Positions 24,854 through 32,208 of a stretch of 64,000 nucleotides of DNA are shown in pieces. The stretch covers positions 1,890,001-1,954,000 of the forward strand of contig NZ_CP045404.1 in assembly GCF_009363715.1 (NCBI RefSeq), read 5' to 3'. Position 1 is the first letter of the stretch. Each line of letters begins with the position of its first letter. This stretch comes from Roseovarius sp. THAF9. Its GTDB lineage: Bacteria; Pseudomonadota; Alphaproteobacteria; Rhodobacterales; Rhodobacteraceae. Below the pieces are notes generated by a model. The model was given only the letters and a program-made list of their open reading frames with translations. It ran no database searches and was not told the origin of the DNA. The translations under genes and the position numbers were made by a program.

Positions 24854-26023
24854 CTATATTCCCTTTCTCTCGCTCACGTCGGCGTCGCCGCCCAGCAGCC
24901 GCGCATGAGCCTCGAGCGCGAACCGGTCCGTCATCCCCGCGATATAGTCGGCGACCAAACGCGCCAGCGCCGTTTCATCGGGGGCGCGGGCCACGTCGTG
25001 GCGCCACCGCCGCGGAAGAAAGTCGGGGTGTGACATGTAGAACGGAAACAGGTCCTCGACTACATTCGTGACACGCCTGCGCATCTCAACCACTTTAGGA
25101 GCACGGTACATACGCTTGAAAAGAAATGACCTTATTTGCTGAAGATCAGACCACATCGGTTCAGAAAAGCGGATCACGGGACGGCCAAGGTCGCGTACTG
25201 CCTGAGCGTTGGCCGGCGCGGCGCGCTGAAGAAGCGCGTGCGAGGTTTCGATCACGTCCGTGACCATGACGCCAAAGACCCGGCGCAGCGCCTCGTGCCG
25301 TCGGCGATAGGGATCGAGGCCAGGATACTTCGTATCCACTTCGCTGTAGCACGCGCCGACGACGGGAAGCTCGGCAATGTCGTCTTCGCTGAAAAGTTTT
25401 GCGCGCAGGCCGTCATGCAGGTCGTGATTATTATAGGCTACGTCATCGGCAAGTGCGGCCACTTGCGCCTCGGCACTGGCATATGTGTCGAGTTCAAGGT
25501 CGTGGCGGGCATCATAGTCGGCCAGCGCATAGGGCAGATCACCCGTGACAGGACCGTTATGCTTGGCGATGCCTTCTAGCGTGTCCCATGTTAGGTTCAG
25601 GCCGTCGAACTCAGCATAATGCCGCTCCAGCGAGGTGACGATGCGAATGGCCTGCGCGTTATGATCAAACCCGCCATACTGCGCCATCAGCGTGTCGAGC
25701 GCGTCTTCGCCCGTGTGGCCGAAAGGTGTGTGGCCCAAATCATGCGCCAACGCCACGGCCTCGGTCAGTTCGACATTCAGGCCAAGCGCCCCGGCGATCG
25801 TCCGGGCCACTTGCGCCACCTCGATCGAGTGTGTGAGGCGGGTGCGGAAATAATCGCCCTCGTGCTCGACGAAAACTTGCGTCTTGTGCTTGAGACGGCG
25901 AAACGCGCTGGAATGGATGATCCGGTCGCGATCCCTTTGATAACAAGACCGAAATGCGCTTTCTTCCTCGGCGTATAGACGTGCGCGCGCCGTTGCCGGA
26001 TCCGAAGCATAAGGGGTATGCAT
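24854..26023 (-). CDS. dgt: dGTP triphosphohydrolase-like HD protein
   Basis: The enzyme cleaves dGTP (or dNTPs) to nucleoside and triphosphate. HD-domain metal ligands are visible in FRTRLTHSIEVAQVAR and AVALAHDLGHTPFGHTGED, with a later conserved DDVAYNNHDLHDG. The N-terminal block FRSCYQRDRDRIIHSSAFRR is also typical. Length 389 residues matches the alphaproteobacterial type 2 group, which I recall as broad dNTPase-like. Divergent from the Fe-S protein gene. Confidence 0.93.
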   Translation of the reverse strand: MHTPYASDPATARARLYAEEESAFRSCYQRDRDRIIHSSAFRRLKHKTQVFVEHEGDYFRTRLTHSIEVAQVARTIAGALGLNVELTEAVALAHDLGHTPFGHTGEDALDTLMAQYGGFDHNAQAIRIVTSLERHYAEFDGLNLTWDTLEGIAKHNGPVTGDLPYALADYDARHDLELDTYASAEAQVAALADDVAYNNHDLHDGLRAKLFSEDDIAELPVVGACYSEVDTKYPGLDPYRRRHEALRRVFGVMVTDVIETSHALLQRAAPANAQAVRDLGRPVIRFSEPMWSDLQQIRSFLFKRMYRAPKVVEMRRRVTNVVEDLFPFYMSHPDFLPRRWRHDVARAPDETALARLVADYIAGMTDRFALEAHARLLGGDADVSERKGI

Positions 26024-26100
26024 CGCCTGTTTCCTTGTCGTCCTGTCCCAGCGTTCGTATATTCCATGATGAACGGCAAAGAAACCTTGAGGATCGCCAG

Positions 26101-26427
26101 ATGCAAATGCCCCCCAAAGTGACGCAACGCGCTTATGAACGCCTTGCTGAAATCGGTGCCGGCGAACAGGGTCAGGCCCTGCGCGTCGCCGTCGAAGGCG
26201 GCGGGTGTTCGGGCTTTCAGTACGACATCAAGCTGGACGCACCCACGGGTGATGACCTTGTTCTGGAAAGCGGCGATGGTCAGAAAGTCATCGTCGACAG
26301 CGTGTCCCTGCCCTTTTTGGCCGGGGCGACGATCGACTTCACCGAGGAACTGATCGGCGCCCGGTTCACCATCGACAACCCGAACGTGACCAGCGCCTGT
26401 GGCTGCGGGACGTCTTTTTCAATGTGA
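26101..26427 (+). CDS. A-type iron-sulfur carrier (ErpA/IscA-like)
   Basis: The 108-residue protein has the three conserved cysteines of A-type carriers: EGGGCSGFQYDIKLD, and SACGCGTSFSM at the C-terminus. Such proteins pass Fe-S clusters to apo-targets. It lies alone, divergent from dgt and convergent, with a 1-base gap, with the EamA gene. ATG 26101 is chosen; ATG 26107 would also work. Whether it is ErpA, IscA or SufA cannot be decided from sequence alone. Confidence 0.93.
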   Translation: MQMPPKVTQRAYERLAEIGAGEQGQALRVAVEGGGCSGFQYDIKLDAPTGDDLVLESGDGQKVIVDSVSLPFLAGATIDFTEELIGARFTIDNPNVTSACGCGTSFSM

Positions 26428-26428
26428 T

Positions 26429-27331
26429 CTATTCGGCAGGAACGGCTGTTTTCGGCGCGTGGATACGGACCTGGTCCCAGACCAGCCATGCGCCGGCTGC
26501 GATCATTAGGGCTGCGCCAAGAAACACCCCTGCCCCGGTCCGCTCGCCGAACGCGACCGATCCGATAGCGACCATCCAGAGAAACTGCAGGTTCATTAAG
26601 GGCGTGACCACGTAAGCCGGTAGCAGTTTGAGCGCGGCCACGAGAACCCAGCGCGCGGCAAACAGCAGCGCGGCGTAATAGCCGACCCACAGCACATCCA
26701 ACCAACCCATCGGCACGAATACGAAGGGCAAGGCAGCGCTCATAACGACCATCAGCGCGAGGTTCGGATAGAAAACCTGTGACAGAAGTCCACCCGGGTC
26801 TCGCTGGCCGATATAACGCGAGGCGACCATGGAAACCGCCCCCATCGCAACGGCAAGAAATGCAACAAAATGGCCTGCCCCGAAACTGTCCACGCCGTCT
26901 TGAAACAGCGCGGCCATCCCAAGGACGCCCAGGATCATCGCGCCCCAGACCTGCCCGCCCGCGCTTTCTTTCAGCATCACCCGCGACAGAAGCGCGGCGA
27001 GGACCGGGATGATGGCGATAAACAGGAACACCTCGGCGAAGGGCAGCAGCTTGAACGCATAGAAGAAGGCGCAAGTGCCGATGACGGTGGCGGCGGCGCG
27101 CAGGGCCATGATGCGTGGGCAACGGGTGGCAAGTACGCGTGTGGCGGCGGATTTGTGGCCCGCTGCAAGACAAAAAAGTGCGACCAGACCGCCGGAGAGC
27201 GCGAACATCTGGGGGGCGGCAAAATTGGTTGAAAAAAGCTTGGTGATGGCATCAGCGCCTGTGATCAGCAACGTGTAGATCACTGCCAGGGACACCCCCA
27301 AAAAGACCGCCTCGCGGCCACGGGCGATCAT
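26429..27331 (-). CDS. EamA/DMT-family transporter, last gene of the repeat-peptide unit
   Basis: This 300-residue protein has ten predicted helices in two EamA halves (MFALSGGLVALFCLAAG; VASRYIGQRDPGGLLSQVF; the C-terminal half ends GVFLGAALMIAAGAWLVWDQ). DMT proteins export metabolites, amino acids or small peptides. The start overlaps the TGA of the 358-residue protein by 4 bases (ATGA), so the two are co-translated. This linkage suggests that it exports a product of that system, but the substrate is unknown. Confidence 0.85.
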   Translation of the reverse strand: MIARGREAVFLGVSLAVIYTLLITGADAITKLFSTNFAAPQMFALSGGLVALFCLAAGHKSAATRVLATRCPRIMALRAAATVIGTCAFFYAFKLLPFAEVFLFIAIIPVLAALLSRVMLKESAGGQVWGAMILGVLGMAALFQDGVDSFGAGHFVAFLAVAMGAVSMVASRYIGQRDPGGLLSQVFYPNLALMVVMSAALPFVFVPMGWLDVLWVGYYAALLFAARWVLVAALKLLPAYVVTPLMNLQFLWMVAIGSVAFGERTGAGVFLGAALMIAAGAWLVWDQVRIHAPKTAVPAE

Positions 27332-28404
27332 GCTGGTATTCCTTGAGAGGCAGCGGCACGGGAAAAGCCGTGGAAGAAGGCGTCGAAATCGACGGCCTTC
27401 TCAGCGGCCTCGACCACCTCGCGAGCCTCGGAGGTCAGGAGCGGGTCGATGCGGGCGCGCATCAGAGACCAGTCGGCGACGCGGTCGCCTTCGAGACGAT
27501 ACATGCATTCAGACAACTCGCGCAGCGGGGCCACGGGCGGTCTTGGCGCGGTGATGCGAAGACCGCCTTCGGGCAGCATCGCGCCGAACCCGCCAAGTCC
27601 GGCAGTGGATAGGAACCATTGAACCATCAGGTAGGGATGGTAGTCGTCCGACATCCAACCCGTAGCGTCGGCCTCGATCACGAAATGCCGCGCCTGCGCT
27701 GCCAGCCAGTTTTCCCATGTGTCGGGCGGGGTTTGCCCGGCAAAGCGCAGCGCGATGCAGATTTCGGCAAGAAGGTCGATGTTCATCTCGAGAAAGGCGA
27801 CCGTGCCTGCAAACCGGAGGCTGTCGAGGAACGCGTCGGGCAGGTCTGGATGATTCCTTCCGTACTCTGAAAGGTAGAAGGCGATATGGGTAAGCTCGTA
27901 GGCGGCCTTCTTGTTCGGCAGCGTAAAGGTCGCGCTGCGGCAACCAAAGCTGCGCAGGCGATCGTCGAGCCCGGTATCATGCGAGATCGGATCGATCCCA
28001 CGGCGCAGGCAGAGGCGCCGCGCCTCGGCCCGCTGAAGGTCGGACAATTCGGTGGCGACAAGCCGTTCGGCGGCTACCCACTCGACTGCTCGCGCACCAG
28101 TCTCACCCTCCATGCCGAGATCTTCAAGATCGAGGCAAAGCGACAGCAGGAAACGGTAATATTGTGGGAAGAACCCCAAGCGTCGGTCGAGCGTGCGGTA
28201 ATGCGTGTCAAAAGGGTCAAAAGCAAATCGCGGGAGAGCCGCGCTTGTGCTGGACAGGATGTTTAGAACTTCGGCGTTTTCCTTGAGCCAAAAAACATCG
28301 GTGTCCGAACGACGCTCGACGGCGAAGCGGTGCAATAACGCGGTTTGGCGCGCTTCCCGCGTGGTCTGGCGGAACGGAAGATCAAGTGTGACGACGGATC
28401 CCAT
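27328..28404 (-). CDS. Uncharacterised, probably all-helical protein
   Basis: The 358-residue soluble protein starts MGSVVTLDLPF; the ATG at 28404 is preceded by AAGGAT at 8 bases. An ORF extension upstream would run through the repeat-peptide gene and is rejected. No signal peptide or membrane helix is seen. Notable blocks are FPQYYRFLLSLCLDLEDLG (residues 79-97), AYELTHIAFYLSEYG (168-182) and DDYHPYLMVQWFL (253-265). Aromatic and acidic residues plus His173 and His256 could build a binding or catalytic pocket, but I do not recognise a metal-site signature. It lies 43 bases after the repeat peptide and overlaps the transporter. Function unknown; a partner or modifier of the repeat peptide is inference. 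Confidence 0.7.
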   Translation of the reverse strand: MGSVVTLDLPFRQTTREARQTALLHRFAVERRSDTDVFWLKENAEVLNILSSTSAALPRFAFDPFDTHYRTLDRRLGFFPQYYRFLLSLCLDLEDLGMEGETGARAVEWVAAERLVATELSDLQRAEARRLCLRRGIDPISHDTGLDDRLRSFGCRSATFTLPNKKAAYELTHIAFYLSEYGRNHPDLPDAFLDSLRFAGTVAFLEMNIDLLAEICIALRFAGQTPPDTWENWLAAQARHFVIEADATGWMSDDYHPYLMVQWFLSTAGLGGFGAMLPEGGLRITAPRPPVAPLRELSECMYRLEGDRVADWSLMRARIDPLLTSEAREVVEAAEKAVDFDAFFHGFSRAAASQGIPA

Positions 28405-28447
28405 GGTAGTGATATCCTTGTATCGTGTTTCCGTTCCGCCGTCGGCC

Positions 28448-28798
28448 TTACAGGCTCGACGTGAAGGCGCCGACAACGTCGCCTTCGTCTGCGCGGTCTG
28501 CCCGTGCGGGGCCAAGGCTGGACGTGAAGAGTTCGACCGCGTCTCCGGTGCCCGCATGGGACGAGACCGTGGGCGCGAGGCTGGAGGTGAAAGCCTCGAC
28601 CGCGTCACCGGTCATCCGGCTGGACTCGGCGACCGGACCCAGGCTGGAGGTGAACATCTCGGTTGCGGCGCCGTCCAGCATATCGCCGGCGGCGTGTAGG
28701 GACGAGGTGAACGCTTCGACAGCGGTGCCGTCATGAAGGCTGGCCTCGTTGGAGGCGGCGAAGTTTTCGACGTGGCGAGTTTTGCGAATTGCAACCAT
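28448..28798 (-). CDS. Repeat peptide with five FTSSL motifs
   Basis: The 116-residue peptide starts MVAIRKTRHVENF; the ATG at 28798 has AGGAG eight bases upstream. Five copies of a 12-residue unit, roughly (D/T/E)G-x-(A/V)-(V/T)-(E/G)-x-FTSSL, occupy residues 23-34, 42-53, 63-74, 84-95 and 105-116, with start-to-start spacing 19, 21, 21 and 21. The last copy is the exact C-terminus. A degenerate copy may sit at residues 10-17 (VENFAASN). Spacers vary freely while FTSSL is invariant. No signal peptide or Cys. The pattern resembles multi-core peptide precursors or tandem docking motifs; the function is unknown. Confidence 0.72.
   Translation of the reverse strand: MVAIRKTRHVENFAASNEASLHDGTAVEAFTSSLHAAGDMLDGAATEMFTSSLGPVAESSRMTGDAVEAFTSSLAPTVSSHAGTGDAVELFTSSLGPARADRADEGDVVGAFTSSL
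28451..28732 (-). repeat. Five coding repeats (FTSSL units)
   Basis: The DNA encoding the five motif copies forms an imperfect tandem array with a period of 57-63 bases. The conserved heart of each copy on the + strand reads like AGGCTGGAGGTGAA. Third-codon positions differ between copies while the amino acids are kept, so selection acts on the protein rather than on the DNA. Confidence 0.75.
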
Positions 28799-28876
28799 TG
28801 GTGGTCTCCTAATTTGGTCAACACCAAAAACGGTTGCACGCAAAACGGGATTTTCAAACTACTTTTCACCGTTAGC

Positions 28877-29001
28877 GAGTTATCCACAGGTCACTATTTT
28901 GGGCGACGAAATTTAAGCGCCCTTGCCAGCTTTTGCGTGCGCTGCTCTGCAGCGCACGCAAAAAATTGTTTTCCACAAGGCAACAAAACTGTGGATAACT
29001 C
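28877..29001. promoter_or_regulatory. Nested dyad with DnaA boxes between divergent genes
   Basis: The 13-mer GAGTTATCCACAG occurs at 28877-28889 and, in inverted orientation, at 28989-29001. Each holds a perfect DnaA box TTATCCACA (28880-28888 on +, 28990-28998 on -). A near-match TTTTCCACA lies at 28969-28977. Between them is a 15-bp perfect hairpin. The wider 28799-29121 stretch has no supported gene and separates the leftward peptide unit from rightward xthA. It may be a DnaA-controlled promoter, a DnaA-titration site or a replication origin; the sequence does not decide. Confidence 0.5.
28931..28963. promoter_or_regulatory. 15-bp perfect hairpin inside the DnaA-box dyad
   Basis: TTTTGCGTGCGCTGC (28931-28945) pairs exactly with GCAGCGCACGCAAAA (28949-28963) around a TCT loop. 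On either strand the stem ends in A/T runs, as in a bidirectional terminator, yet no gene ends here: both neighbours start outward. A structural role in the dyad or insulation between divergent promoters are possible. Confidence 0.55.
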
Positions 29002-29121
29002 ATGGATTGTTTCCAAATCAGGCCGAATCACCCTACCTGGAAATCCTTAATGAAATGCTGTTGGCGGCTTGCCTCCGTCGCCGTGCTGGGCGATAGATCG
29101 TCCATGACCGGGAGGCCGCGG

Positions 29122-29904
29122 ATGAAGATCGCCAGTTTCAACATCAACGGGATCAAGGCGCGTCTGAACGCCCTGACCGACTGGCTCGACGACGCGCAAC
29201 CTGACGTCGCGCTGTTGCAAGAGATCAAGACGGTCGACGAGGGTTTCCCGCGCGAGATATTCGAGGACCGCGGCTATAACGTCGAAACCCACGGTCAGAA
29301 GGGCTTCAACGGCGTCGCCATCCTATCCAAACCGCCGCTGGAGGACGTCACCCGGGGGCTGCCGGGCGACGACGAGGACGATCACGCAAGGTGGATTGAG
29401 GCGACGGTCGTGGGCGATGTTTCTTCGGTGCGATTGTGCGGCCTATATCTGCCCAACGGGAATCCGGCGCCGGGTCCGAAATACGACTACAAGCTGGCCT
29501 GGATGCAGCGTCAGAAGGCCCGTGCAACCGAGTTGCTTGCCTCCGAGGAACCTTTCCTGATGGCGGGAGATTACAACGTGATTCCGCAGGACGACGACGC
29601 CAAGCACCCGGAGGCCTGGGCCGAGGACGCGCTGGCCCTGCCGCAAAGCCGGGCGGCCTTTCGTGAACTTCTGGCAATGGGGTTTACCGAGGCCTTCCGC
29701 GCTAGGGTACACGGGCCGGGTCATTACACGTTCTGGGATTACCAGGCTGGCGCGTGGAACAGGGACGACGGCATTCGCATCGACCATTTTCTGCTAAGCC
29801 CGCAGGCGGCAGATCACCTGGTGGACGTGGGTATCGACAAGGATATCCGCGGACGGGAGAAGCCCTCGGACCATGTTCCGGTTTGGGTCGAACTGGATAT
29901 TTGA
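29122..29904 (+). CDS. xthA: Exodeoxyribonuclease III
   Basis: ExoIII is an AP endonuclease and 3'-exonuclease in base-excision repair. The ATG at 29122 (MKIASFNINGIKARL) follows GGGAGG. Catalytic blocks of the EEP fold are visible: VALLQEIKT, LYLPNGNP, LMAGDYNVIPQDDD, and near the end DGIRIDHFLLSP and KPSDHVPVWVELD. Length 260 residues is standard. A strong terminator follows the gene. Confidence 0.96.
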   Translation: MKIASFNINGIKARLNALTDWLDDAQPDVALLQEIKTVDEGFPREIFEDRGYNVETHGQKGFNGVAILSKPPLEDVTRGLPGDDEDDHARWIEATVVGDVSSVRLCGLYLPNGNPAPGPKYDYKLAWMQRQKARATELLASEEPFLMAGDYNVIPQDDDAKHPEAWAEDALALPQSRAAFRELLAMGFTEAFRARVHGPGHYTFWDYQAGAWNRDDGIRIDHFLLSPQAADHLVDVGIDKDIRGREKPSDHVPVWVELDI

Positions 29905-29915
29905 TCCGCGAGAAA

Positions 29916-29956
29916 GCCAGAGGCATGCATATCATGCATGCCTCTGGCAGCTTTTT
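29916..29956 (+). terminator. Rho-independent terminator after xthA
   Basis: A perfect 15-bp stem, GCCAGAGGCATGCAT (29916-29930) with ATGCATGCCTCTGGC (29934-29948), is followed by AGCTTTTT. It stands between the convergent ends of xthA and the porin gene, and its partly T-rich opposite flank could also serve the leftward gene. Confidence 0.85.
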
Positions 29957-29970
29957 GAAACGCTCCGCGT

Positions 29971-30885
29971 TCAGAACGCCGCGTCAAGCCCGGTCGATAC
30001 TGCATTGTGGCGCGGCGACATGACAGAGCGCGAAACGCTGTTGAGCGGAGGTTCGGCGTTGGCACCGACAAGAGGAACTGTGACCCCAAGGCGCACGGTG
30101 TCCACATCTGCGCTTCCTGCGCCCAAGGACACGTCGGTCCGCGCCAGTTCGAGCGACAGCATTGCCGAGGTACTCATGACCTGATCAAGGCTGTAGCCTG
30201 CACCGATGCCATACGTCGTAGCGTCCGCGTTCACGTTGCTGATGTCCAGATGGTTCACCCCGGCAAAACCGCTCAAGCCATTCGCAAAGGAGTAGCTGGC
30301 GCCAAGGCCCCACGCGGCAATGTCGACGCTGCCACCACCGCCGGAAAGCTCGGAGTTGATGTAGTGGCCGCCCACTCGAAATTGTTCCGACGCCGCATAA
30401 CGAATATTTACGCCGTAATCTGTCCAGTCTGCGCCAGCAGGCAAGCTCGGCGAGGTTTCAGATTCCCCAAGGAAAAGCTCGATACCGAACTGATTGGTCA
30501 CATATCCACCACTCAAGCCGTAAGAGGTGACATCGAGACTTCCGGCACCGGTCGGGTCCAACGAAGCGTGGTCGAGATAACCGCCAACCACGGCACCGTT
30601 GTTGAACTGGTAATTGAGTGTCAGACCGAGATCCATTGTATCCAGATCACCAGCTCCGTCGGGGTCGATTTTTGCAATCGTTCCATCAAAGCCGAGATGG
30701 ACACCGCTATCGAAGCTGACGGAGCCTGCACCGTCCAAGGTGAATGAGGAAATGTCGCCACCGCCATTGGAAACGGACGAGTGGGCGTAGCCCAAAGTTC
30801 CCACGCCACGAAATTCCTGCGCCAGCAAGCCAGCCGGCAAGCAAACCACCACAGCCCCCACAAGGGTACCATACGAATAAGTCAT
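29971..30885 (-). CDS. Porin-like outer-membrane beta-barrel protein
   Basis: A signal peptide (MTYSYGTLVGAVVVCLPAGLLA, split after LLA) leads into a Gly/Ser/Asp-rich protein of about 280 mature residues built from alternating amphipathic strands, such as FTLDGAGSVSFDSG, YGLSGGYVTNQFGIELFLG and YGIGAGYSLD. This is the general look of Rhodobacteraceae small porins. The final segment ends in DAAF, with a C-terminal Phe as is usual for BAM substrates. ATG 30885 is chosen because GAGGAAA precedes it; ATG 30900 is an alternative. Confidence 0.75.
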   Translation of the reverse strand: MTYSYGTLVGAVVVCLPAGLLAQEFRGVGTLGYAHSSVSNGGGDISSFTLDGAGSVSFDSGVHLGFDGTIAKIDPDGAGDLDTMDLGLTLNYQFNNGAVVGGYLDHASLDPTGAGSLDVTSYGLSGGYVTNQFGIELFLGESETSPSLPAGADWTDYGVNIRYAASEQFRVGGHYINSELSGGGGSVDIAAWGLGASYSFANGLSGFAGVNHLDISNVNADATTYGIGAGYSLDQVMSTSAMLSLELARTDVSLGAGSADVDTVRLGVTVPLVGANAEPPLNSVSRSVMSPRHNAVSTGLDAAF

Positions 30886-30987: not shown

Positions 30988-32163
30988 TCATTTGCCACAA
31001 TCTGTAGCCGTAACATCATAGCCATAGATCCAGTCGAATTGCCCCACCAGGCGGCCAGGCATCAACGTCCCGCCGACCCGCAGCGCCGCGTGGGCGGCAC
31101 GGCGCAGCGGTGGGAAGGCGAGATGGTATTTCCATGCATTTCGGCCGGCCACGGCGACGACCCGCCGCACCCGATCGGACCGCATGTCTTGATAGGCCGC
31201 GAACGCGCTGCCCAGATCAGCGCATTGGTCCAGGCAGGTGCCAAGCGCGTAGGCATCCTCGAGCGCCATATTGGCCCCCTGAGCCATGAAAGGCAGCGTC
31301 GGGTGGGCTGCGTCGCCGGCCAGCACAACGCCACCCAAGTGCCATTTTGTGGCCACTGGATGGCGGAAAAGCCCCCACCGATGCACTTTTTCCACACGTT
31401 CGAGCAAATCCTTCGCGTCGCGCCCGAAATCGTCGAAGACGCCGCGCAGCGTGTCCGGATCATCCTCGGCGGTCCAGCTTTCCTCGTGCCACTGGGCCCG
31501 TTCCTGTACAGCGACGAGGTTGCGCATACGCCCGCCGCGCAGGGGATAGGTGACAAGATGCCGGTGCGGGCCCATGAAAACTTGCGCCTGTGGGTCGGCG
31601 CCGGTTTCGAAGATCACGGCGCGCCAGGCAACCTGCCGGGTGAAGAAAGGCGCGGACGTGCCGTTGAGCGCCTGCCGCGCGACCGAATGGAGCCCGTCCG
31701 CGCCGACAAGCAGGTCGCATGTCAGCGGCGTGCCATCGCGCAGCGACACCTTGGGCGCGGGATCCGGGCTCACGGACGCCACCCCATGATCCAGACATAT
31801 CTCAACCCCGGCCGCGCGGGCCGCGTGCTCCAGGATATGGATCAGGTCGGCGCGGTGCACGAAATGGTAGTCTCCGCAAGGGAGCCGTGCGAGATCAAGC
31901 CGCACGACCTCGGCCCCCTTGTAGTCGCGCAGAAGTACCGACTGCCCGCGCACGGATGTGGCCCTCAGTGCACTGCCCAAGCCCAGCTTCTCGAGTACGA
32001 CGAACCCGTTGGGACTGATCTGCAGCCCTGAACCCACTTCCGTGATCCGAGGGGCTTGTTCGAGAACACGCACGGCGGCGCCCGCGCGGCGCAGCATGAT
32101 CGCCGTAGTCAGCCCACCGATGCCTCCGCCGAGAACGATGCAGTTGAGAGACGCGATATCCAT
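30988..32163 (-). CDS. FAD-dependent monooxygenase (salicylate hydroxylase-like)
   Basis: The 391-residue protein has the group A flavoprotein hydroxylase motifs: N-terminal FAD site IVLGGGIGGLTTAIMLRRAG, the central LLVGADGLHSVAR and the second FAD site VVLAGDAAHPTLPFMAQGAN. Related proteins hydroxylate aromatic acids, quinone precursors or urate. ATG 32163 has AAGGA upstream; an 11-codon longer start is less likely. There are no neighbouring catabolic genes, so the substrate is open. Confidence 0.85.
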   Translation of the reverse strand: MDIASLNCIVLGGGIGGLTTAIMLRRAGAAVRVLEQAPRITEVGSGLQISPNGFVVLEKLGLGSALRATSVRGQSVLLRDYKGAEVVRLDLARLPCGDYHFVHRADLIHILEHAARAAGVEICLDHGVASVSPDPAPKVSLRDGTPLTCDLLVGADGLHSVARQALNGTSAPFFTRQVAWRAVIFETGADPQAQVFMGPHRHLVTYPLRGGRMRNLVAVQERAQWHEESWTAEDDPDTLRGVFDDFGRDAKDLLERVEKVHRWGLFRHPVATKWHLGGVVLAGDAAHPTLPFMAQGANMALEDAYALGTCLDQCADLGSAFAAYQDMRSDRVRRVVAVAGRNAWKYHLAFPPLRRAAHAALRVGGTLMPGRLVGQFDWIYGYDVTATDCGK

Positions 32164-32180
32164 GACGGTCCTTTGAATGC

Positions 32181-32208
32181 GAAAACGCCGAAGCAAAAGC
32201 CTCGGCGT
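32181..32208 (-). terminator. Rho-independent terminator after dksA
   Basis: Read leftward, ACGCCGAGGC, loop TTTT and GCTTCGGCGT form a 10-bp stem with one G-T pair, followed by TTTC. It lies 27 bases after the dksA stop and separates dksA from the flavin monooxygenase gene. Confidence 0.7.

Follow-up and report, generated by a model that had tools for sequence, protein, structure and literature searches.

Multi-core precursors of ribosomally synthesized and post-translationally modified peptides (RiPPs), like multi-copy pheromone precursors, carry several copies of one core with variable spacers between them. Among enzymes with ribosomal peptide substrates, MslH, the epimerase of the lasso peptide MS-271, is reported to have a calcineurin-like fold with Ca(II), two His/Asp dyads serving to shift the alpha proton (PMC10406935). 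A member of the DUF6895 family is named a lasso-peptide epimerase, with a ribosomal precursor peptide as its substrate, in the title of another paper (Shi et al., ACS Catal. 2026; cited in PMC13352647). Here we describe a locus of Roseovarius sp. THAF9 (Rhodobacteraceae), contained in a 64,000-nucleotide stretch of contig NZ_CP045404.1 (positions 1,890,001 to 1,954,000 of the forward strand; hereafter the window), where a peptide with five repeats is encoded directly upstream of a protein of the Pfam family DUF6902, which is homologous to DUF6895. Comparison across species suggests that this protein is an enzyme that chemically alters each repeat, giving a species-specific peptide product. We give slightly better than even credence to a specific form of this reading, namely a multi-core RiPP-type precursor with a dedicated enzyme that is most likely a peptide epimerase with a putative alpha/alpha-barrel fold.

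The motif FTSSL occurs in the THAF9 peptide at residues 30, 49, 70, 91 and 112, a spacing of 19, 21, 21 and 21, and the last copy forms the C-terminus; these positions bear out a preliminary description of this DNA, which had noted five regularly spaced copies with the final one C-terminal. Shuffling the peptide 20,000 times never gave a 5-mer with more than 3 occurrences. The window has 571 stop-free frames that are 60 amino acids or longer, and the runner-up among them contains 3 copies of RRRRR. The five copies are encoded by different codons (the serine pair reads TCG-TCC in contrast to TCC-AGC and TCG-AGC), and are therefore no fresh DNA duplication. The peptide has no match in Pfam or NCBIfam. 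Pfam matches on six of its relatives were scattered, weak and unrelated, those just over the cut-off being MPH2 at locus L026 of Roseovarius nubinhibens ISM and Palm_thioest and S1_2 at locus L053; they were judged to be chance matches caused by the repeats.

A protein search with the peptide gave only 4 relatives, because the repeats have few exact words in common; the others came from the DNA neighbourhood of DUF6902. Seventy-eight peptides were parsed, and unit statistics were drawn from the 75 in which a strict rule recognized two or more units (L157, L158 and L160 were assessed visually and left out). The family-wide unit is G-[DE]-[AG]-[VT]-E-[MLA]-F-[TS]-S-x-x-[AG]-P, and many of the relatives' peptides start with M-[ST]-A-x-x-K. 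FTSSL is a single variant among many, as the 75 peptides have 37 majority motifs, among them FSSGS (15), FTSWS (9), FTSGS (4) and FTSGL (4). Hence, the FTSSL once called invariant is uniform within the THAF9 peptide and not across the family, and the expectation that it would be conserved in relatives fails literally, its replacement being another 5-mer common to the copies of the peptide concerned. Motif identity is 97% among copies of one peptide versus 50% between peptides, and all parsed copies are identical in 54 of the 75; since the parser demands that 3 of 5 residues match and drops strongly deviant copies (e.g. the final unit in L138 and in L124), this within-peptide uniformity is somewhat overstated. 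Copy number varies from 2 to 20, as had been guessed, and the final motif is the exact C-terminus in 45 of the peptides. The spacers, earlier suggested to be cleavable linkers, are variable in sequence, but units are 20 or 21 residues apart in 393 of 429 intervals, a spacing tighter than plain linkers would need. This regular spacing, the G-[DE] before every core and the different enzyme set the DUF6902 partner apart from the multi-core RiPP and pheromone precursors mentioned above.

A tree of the 75 enzymes, made with FastTree and used without its support values, requires at least 49 motif changes; counted by position, the changes number 3, 27, 11, 21 and 26 for positions 1 to 5. Of the codon pairs between copies within peptides at positions 2, 4 and 5, 1812 are identical, 1781 differ synonymously and 13 differ non-synonymously. 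They were counted only from unit pairs with dissimilar spacers, a choice by which the spacer differences are bound to be non-synonymous. With codons differing at about half, the copies are therefore old, yet held to one sequence. Comparison of the copies points to a core under selection, and their near-uniformity within each peptide supports the earlier idea of a modified or recognized core. Selection would also keep docking sites uniform, and tandem motifs at a fixed spacing of 20-21 residues would fit a scaffold, in which the repeats gather several DUF6902 molecules that act on another substrate. We nevertheless consider a scaffold quite unlikely, given that positions 2, 4 and 5 vary between species yet match in all copies, which fits a product or a substrate-specific enzyme better than a docking motif anchored on F and S.

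The distribution of the two genes was assessed in 295 evenly sampled Rhodobacteraceae genomes, of which 82 have DUF6902. After genome G139 (L163) was dropped from the count, its locus being cut by a contig end, 81 DUF6902 genomes were judgeable; the repeat peptide lies directly upstream of DUF6902 in 79 of them (the masked L110 was scored positive from the peptide search). A single peptide query matched 70 genomes, every one DUF6902-positive, and had no match among the 213 DUF6902-negative genomes; the Fisher value calculated for this co-occurrence takes no account of relatedness. The peptide and the 358-residue protein thus form the unit that the preliminary description had proposed, and the co-occurrence check it had suggested turned up no peptide without DUF6902 in those 213 genomes. 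In a species-level collection, the open reading frame (ORF) directly upstream contains a repeated 5-mer at all of the best 80 of 341 DUF6902 loci, a set that overlaps the census genomes. On this comparative evidence, it is highly probable that enzyme and repeat peptide belong together.

A few peptide matches do not adjoin DUF6902. In G027, G053 and G250 the match is on another contig, and the contig with DUF6902 breaks off within the peptide or close to it, which makes each of them probably one gene split by assembly; the remaining ones are weak, with five stops in G200 and on the opposite strand in G127 and G088. A second peptide query was run on the peptide-less genomes (G288, G039 and G139) and found no separate copy, the lone match, in G039, having an E value of 0.08. 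In ten DUF6902-negative genomes that were inspected, erpA and xthA are neighbours and the cassette is absent; the distance between the two genes ranges from 33 to about 1350 bases. Among 289 genomes of the class, over-cut-off matches to DUF6902 were confined to Rhodobacteraceae, and the family appears in no plasmid record searched.

The protein that had been described as unknown and helical is indeed modelled as all-helical, but it belongs to a named family, its residues 1-350 matching DUF6902 (PF21843) at 467.2 bits against a cut-off of 27. It also matches DUF6895 (PF21836) at 63.1 bits (cut-off 23.8), and hhalign aligns DUF6902 with 19 DUF6895 proteins over residues 79-267 (probability 94.5, E 7.5e-8). 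Conversely, the DUF6902 profile is weak on six DUF6895 proteins, reaching 18.8-21.4 bits (cut-off 27) in three, with no match listed for the other three. The nearest relatives of the THAF9 protein, among the best 80 of the 341 loci, are Roseovarius proteins at 85-90% identity. No solved structure was found for DUF6902 by sequence search, a viral fold library gave no significant match, and the literature searched, largely outside subscription journals, contains no paper that names DUF6902 and one that names DUF6895. The THAF9 genome has no second DUF6895-type gene.

Invariant or nearly invariant in 86 DUF6902 representatives are R31, W39, K41, E42, E45, R84, D92, E94, R125, R149, N164, H173, D210, E214, D253, Y255 and H256. 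Hhalign pairs the [TS]-H (H173), D..E (D210, E214) and Y-H (H256) motifs between the two families; in the 19 DUF6895 proteins, the equivalents H208, D250 and E254 do not vary at all, and Y312 and H313 hardly vary. H173, D210, E214 and H256 are retained in all 79 DUF6902 proteins that have a peptide, while the two that have none are the sole two of 81 without H173 and D210. In G288 (L144), where the ORF is open but altered, the changes are H173R, Y177H, D210S and N164D, with H256 retained; in G039 (L161) they are H173Q, Y177Q, D210L, E214R and H256T. By simple counting the association amounts to 1 in 3240, a post hoc figure from two cases, uncorrected for relatedness. The pair suggests a natural experiment linking the conserved pocket to the peptide, and the loss of conserved His and Asp, beyond surface residues, argues against a scaffold. 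Separately, residues 197, 231 and 106 track Trp at motif position 4 (e.g. H197 in 15 of 17 W-type proteins versus 4 of 58 others), and are candidates for core specificity, with relatedness uncorrected here too.

A small precursor gene beside a dedicated enzyme, with selection on the precursor as indicated by those 79 genomes and the codon pairs, is the arrangement of a RiPP locus, and we hold RiPP-type modification of the repeat peptide to be probable. The peptide had earlier been called the substrate or scaffold of its neighbour; the first option is now the stronger and the second the weaker, because the DUF6902 family has a link to peptide epimerases. An epimerase is the most likely kind of enzyme, judging from the title of the DUF6895 report and the shared His, Asp and Glu residues. 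The THAF9 peptide would accordingly be a multi-core precursor in which a short leader at the N-terminus is followed by five units, each consisting of G-[DE]-x-x-x-x and a five-residue core (FTSSL here), about 20-21 residues apart. DUF6902 would bind the conserved G-[DE]...F-x-S frame and modify every core, most likely by L-to-D epimerization of one or more core residues, with acid/base catalysis by H173 and H256, aided by D210, E214 and D253, within a putative alpha/alpha barrel, possibly of the AGE-type 2-epimerase kind. The product would be a single defined sequence particular to the species; a housekeeping protease may release it, and EamA may help its export in many species. Such a mechanism would be of the same kind as that of MslH, likewise on a ribosomal peptide, but its calcineurin-like fold and Ca(II) contrast with the all-helical DUF6902 model, and no homology was seen. 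The DUF6895 epimerase is closer by descent, although DUF6902 is a separate Pfam family whose partner is a multi-core repeat peptide.

The same precursor and enzyme could instead bring about a non-epimerizing change, such as dehydration, cyclization or another alteration of core Thr, Ser, Cys or Trp, which we find rather doubtful but worth serious consideration. Hydroxyl or thiol residues at core positions 4 and 5 are not conserved; the genes flanking the cassette include no conserved partner enzyme, kinase or cofactor-binding family; and DUF6902 has no recognizable Cys/His zinc site of the LanC kind. The whole THAF9 genome contains neither a LanC-like cyclase (PF05147), as expected of a lanthipeptide system, nor the B-protein peptidase family (PF13471) of lasso peptides. 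Furthermore, the DUF6895 relative is, by title, an epimerase (Shi et al., ACS Catal. 2026).

Several DUF6895 loci (L180, L181, L182, L185, L186 and L187) resemble the DUF6902 cassette in having a small peptide gene immediately ahead of the enzyme, with two units in L181 and L182. They differ in their longer leader (L..SG[IL][IVL][DN]...) and in cores of the W..[YF][VIL][YL] type, with no F-x-S-x-x. Gathering of enzyme molecules has little sense on peptides of one or two cores, a further point against a scaffold. In L180, L181 and L182 (Rhizobium sp. CF122, a Pseudomonadota genome and a Rickettsiales metagenome-assembled genome), DUF6895 is accompanied by small peptides with W..[YF] cores, one or two per locus, which form a wider and apparently uncharacterized peptide family. 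L185 and L186 are on Kitasatospora and Streptomyces plasmids, where a small peptide is encoded upstream of DUF6895 and an IPT/TIG-domain gene lies nearby. Positions 1451-6688 of L188, on a Streptomyces fungicidicus plasmid, encode a P450, a 62-amino-acid ORF, an unknown protein of 231 amino acids, two tandem DUF6895 proteins and a beta-lactamase-fold protein, a gene row that looks like a RiPP cluster.

An EamA homologue adjoins the cassette in 63 of the 81 genomes (62 of 82 loci by a narrower distance rule) and is missing from that place in the other 18; it is an optional third gene. The preliminary description had a processed product leaving via this transporter. The absence of an adjacent EamA from those 18 genomes weakens the case for an exporter, and EamA proteins are not known to export peptides. 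EamA-type proteins do export small metabolites, and this, together with the exactly C-terminal cores of 45 of the 75 peptides, would suit a carrier on which an amino-acid-like small molecule is built, then cut off, as in pearlins, and exported by EamA. A carrier is very improbable in our judgement: many of the copies are internal, whereas the known carriers grow from their C-terminus alone; the neighbourhood of the cassette has no conserved ligase of the type required; and those 18 genomes have no adjacent EamA.

For a Pfam family of unknown function found in 82 of the sampled genomes of a dominant marine group, the comparison offers a testable function and names a likely substrate, the residues likely to be catalytic and natural mutants in which conserved residues are lost. 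If DUF6902 is an epimerase, it would be an iterative, multi-core installer of D-amino acids whose minimal cassette is two genes, which would be of use in producing peptides with D-residues in E. coli. Cores that are uniform within species and different between species raise the question of a species-specific signal. Peptide signalling throughout the marine Rhodobacteraceae, in which DUF6902 would be a new class of iterative peptide epimerase placing a D-residue in 2 to 20 copies of a species-specific five-residue core that switches blockwise between species like pherotypes, is an unlikely but conceivable extension.

Table 1. Features of the THAF9 locus (positions in the window)
Feature	Position	Strand	Basis
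Multi-core repeat peptide, proposed precursor, 116 aa	28448..28798	minus	sequence reading and relatives
Proposed leader, N-terminal residues 1-23, ahead of unit 1	28730..28798	minus	position read; function inferred
Unit 1, GTAVEAFTSSL	28697..28729	minus	
Unit 2, GAATEMFTSSL	28640..28672	minus	
Unit 3, GDAVEAFTSSL	28577..28609	minus	
Unit 4, GDAVELFTSSL	28514..28546	minus	
Unit 5, GDVVGAFTSSL, C-terminal end of peptide	28451..28483	minus	
AGGAG ribosome-binding site, ahead of peptide ATG	28806..28810	minus	sequence reading
DUF6902 protein, 358 aa, proposed peptide-modifying enzyme, most likely epimerase	27328..28404	minus	profile match
EamA transporter (PF00892), 300 aa, optional third gene	26429..27331	minus	profile match
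Palindrome between peptide gene and xthA (arms of 15 nt, loop of 3 nt)	28931..28963	no strand	near relatives

The three-gene layout given earlier agrees with Table 1 in all coordinates, with every gene on the minus strand. The peptide gene is separated by 43 bases from the DUF6902 gene, whose end is overlapped by the EamA start via ATGA. No Rfam match was found within window positions 26000-30000, and PHROGs and PADLOC searches gave no matches. The peptide gene and xthA are divergent with the palindrome in between (RNA fold z -3.9). The near relatives L001, L002 and L003 carry it at the equivalent place (2379-2411), with compensatory changes in the arms; across these and the window it is perfect, with arms of 15-16 nt and a loop of 1-3 nt, and it is not reported as such in L004, L005 and L009. 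Since no T run follows it on either strand, the palindrome is perhaps an operator rather than a terminator. Past xthA, an ORF resembling monooxygenases dependent on flavin adenine dinucleotide occupies positions 30988-32196 of the window, and 49 of 163 clustered loci have a similar ORF on that side of the cassette.
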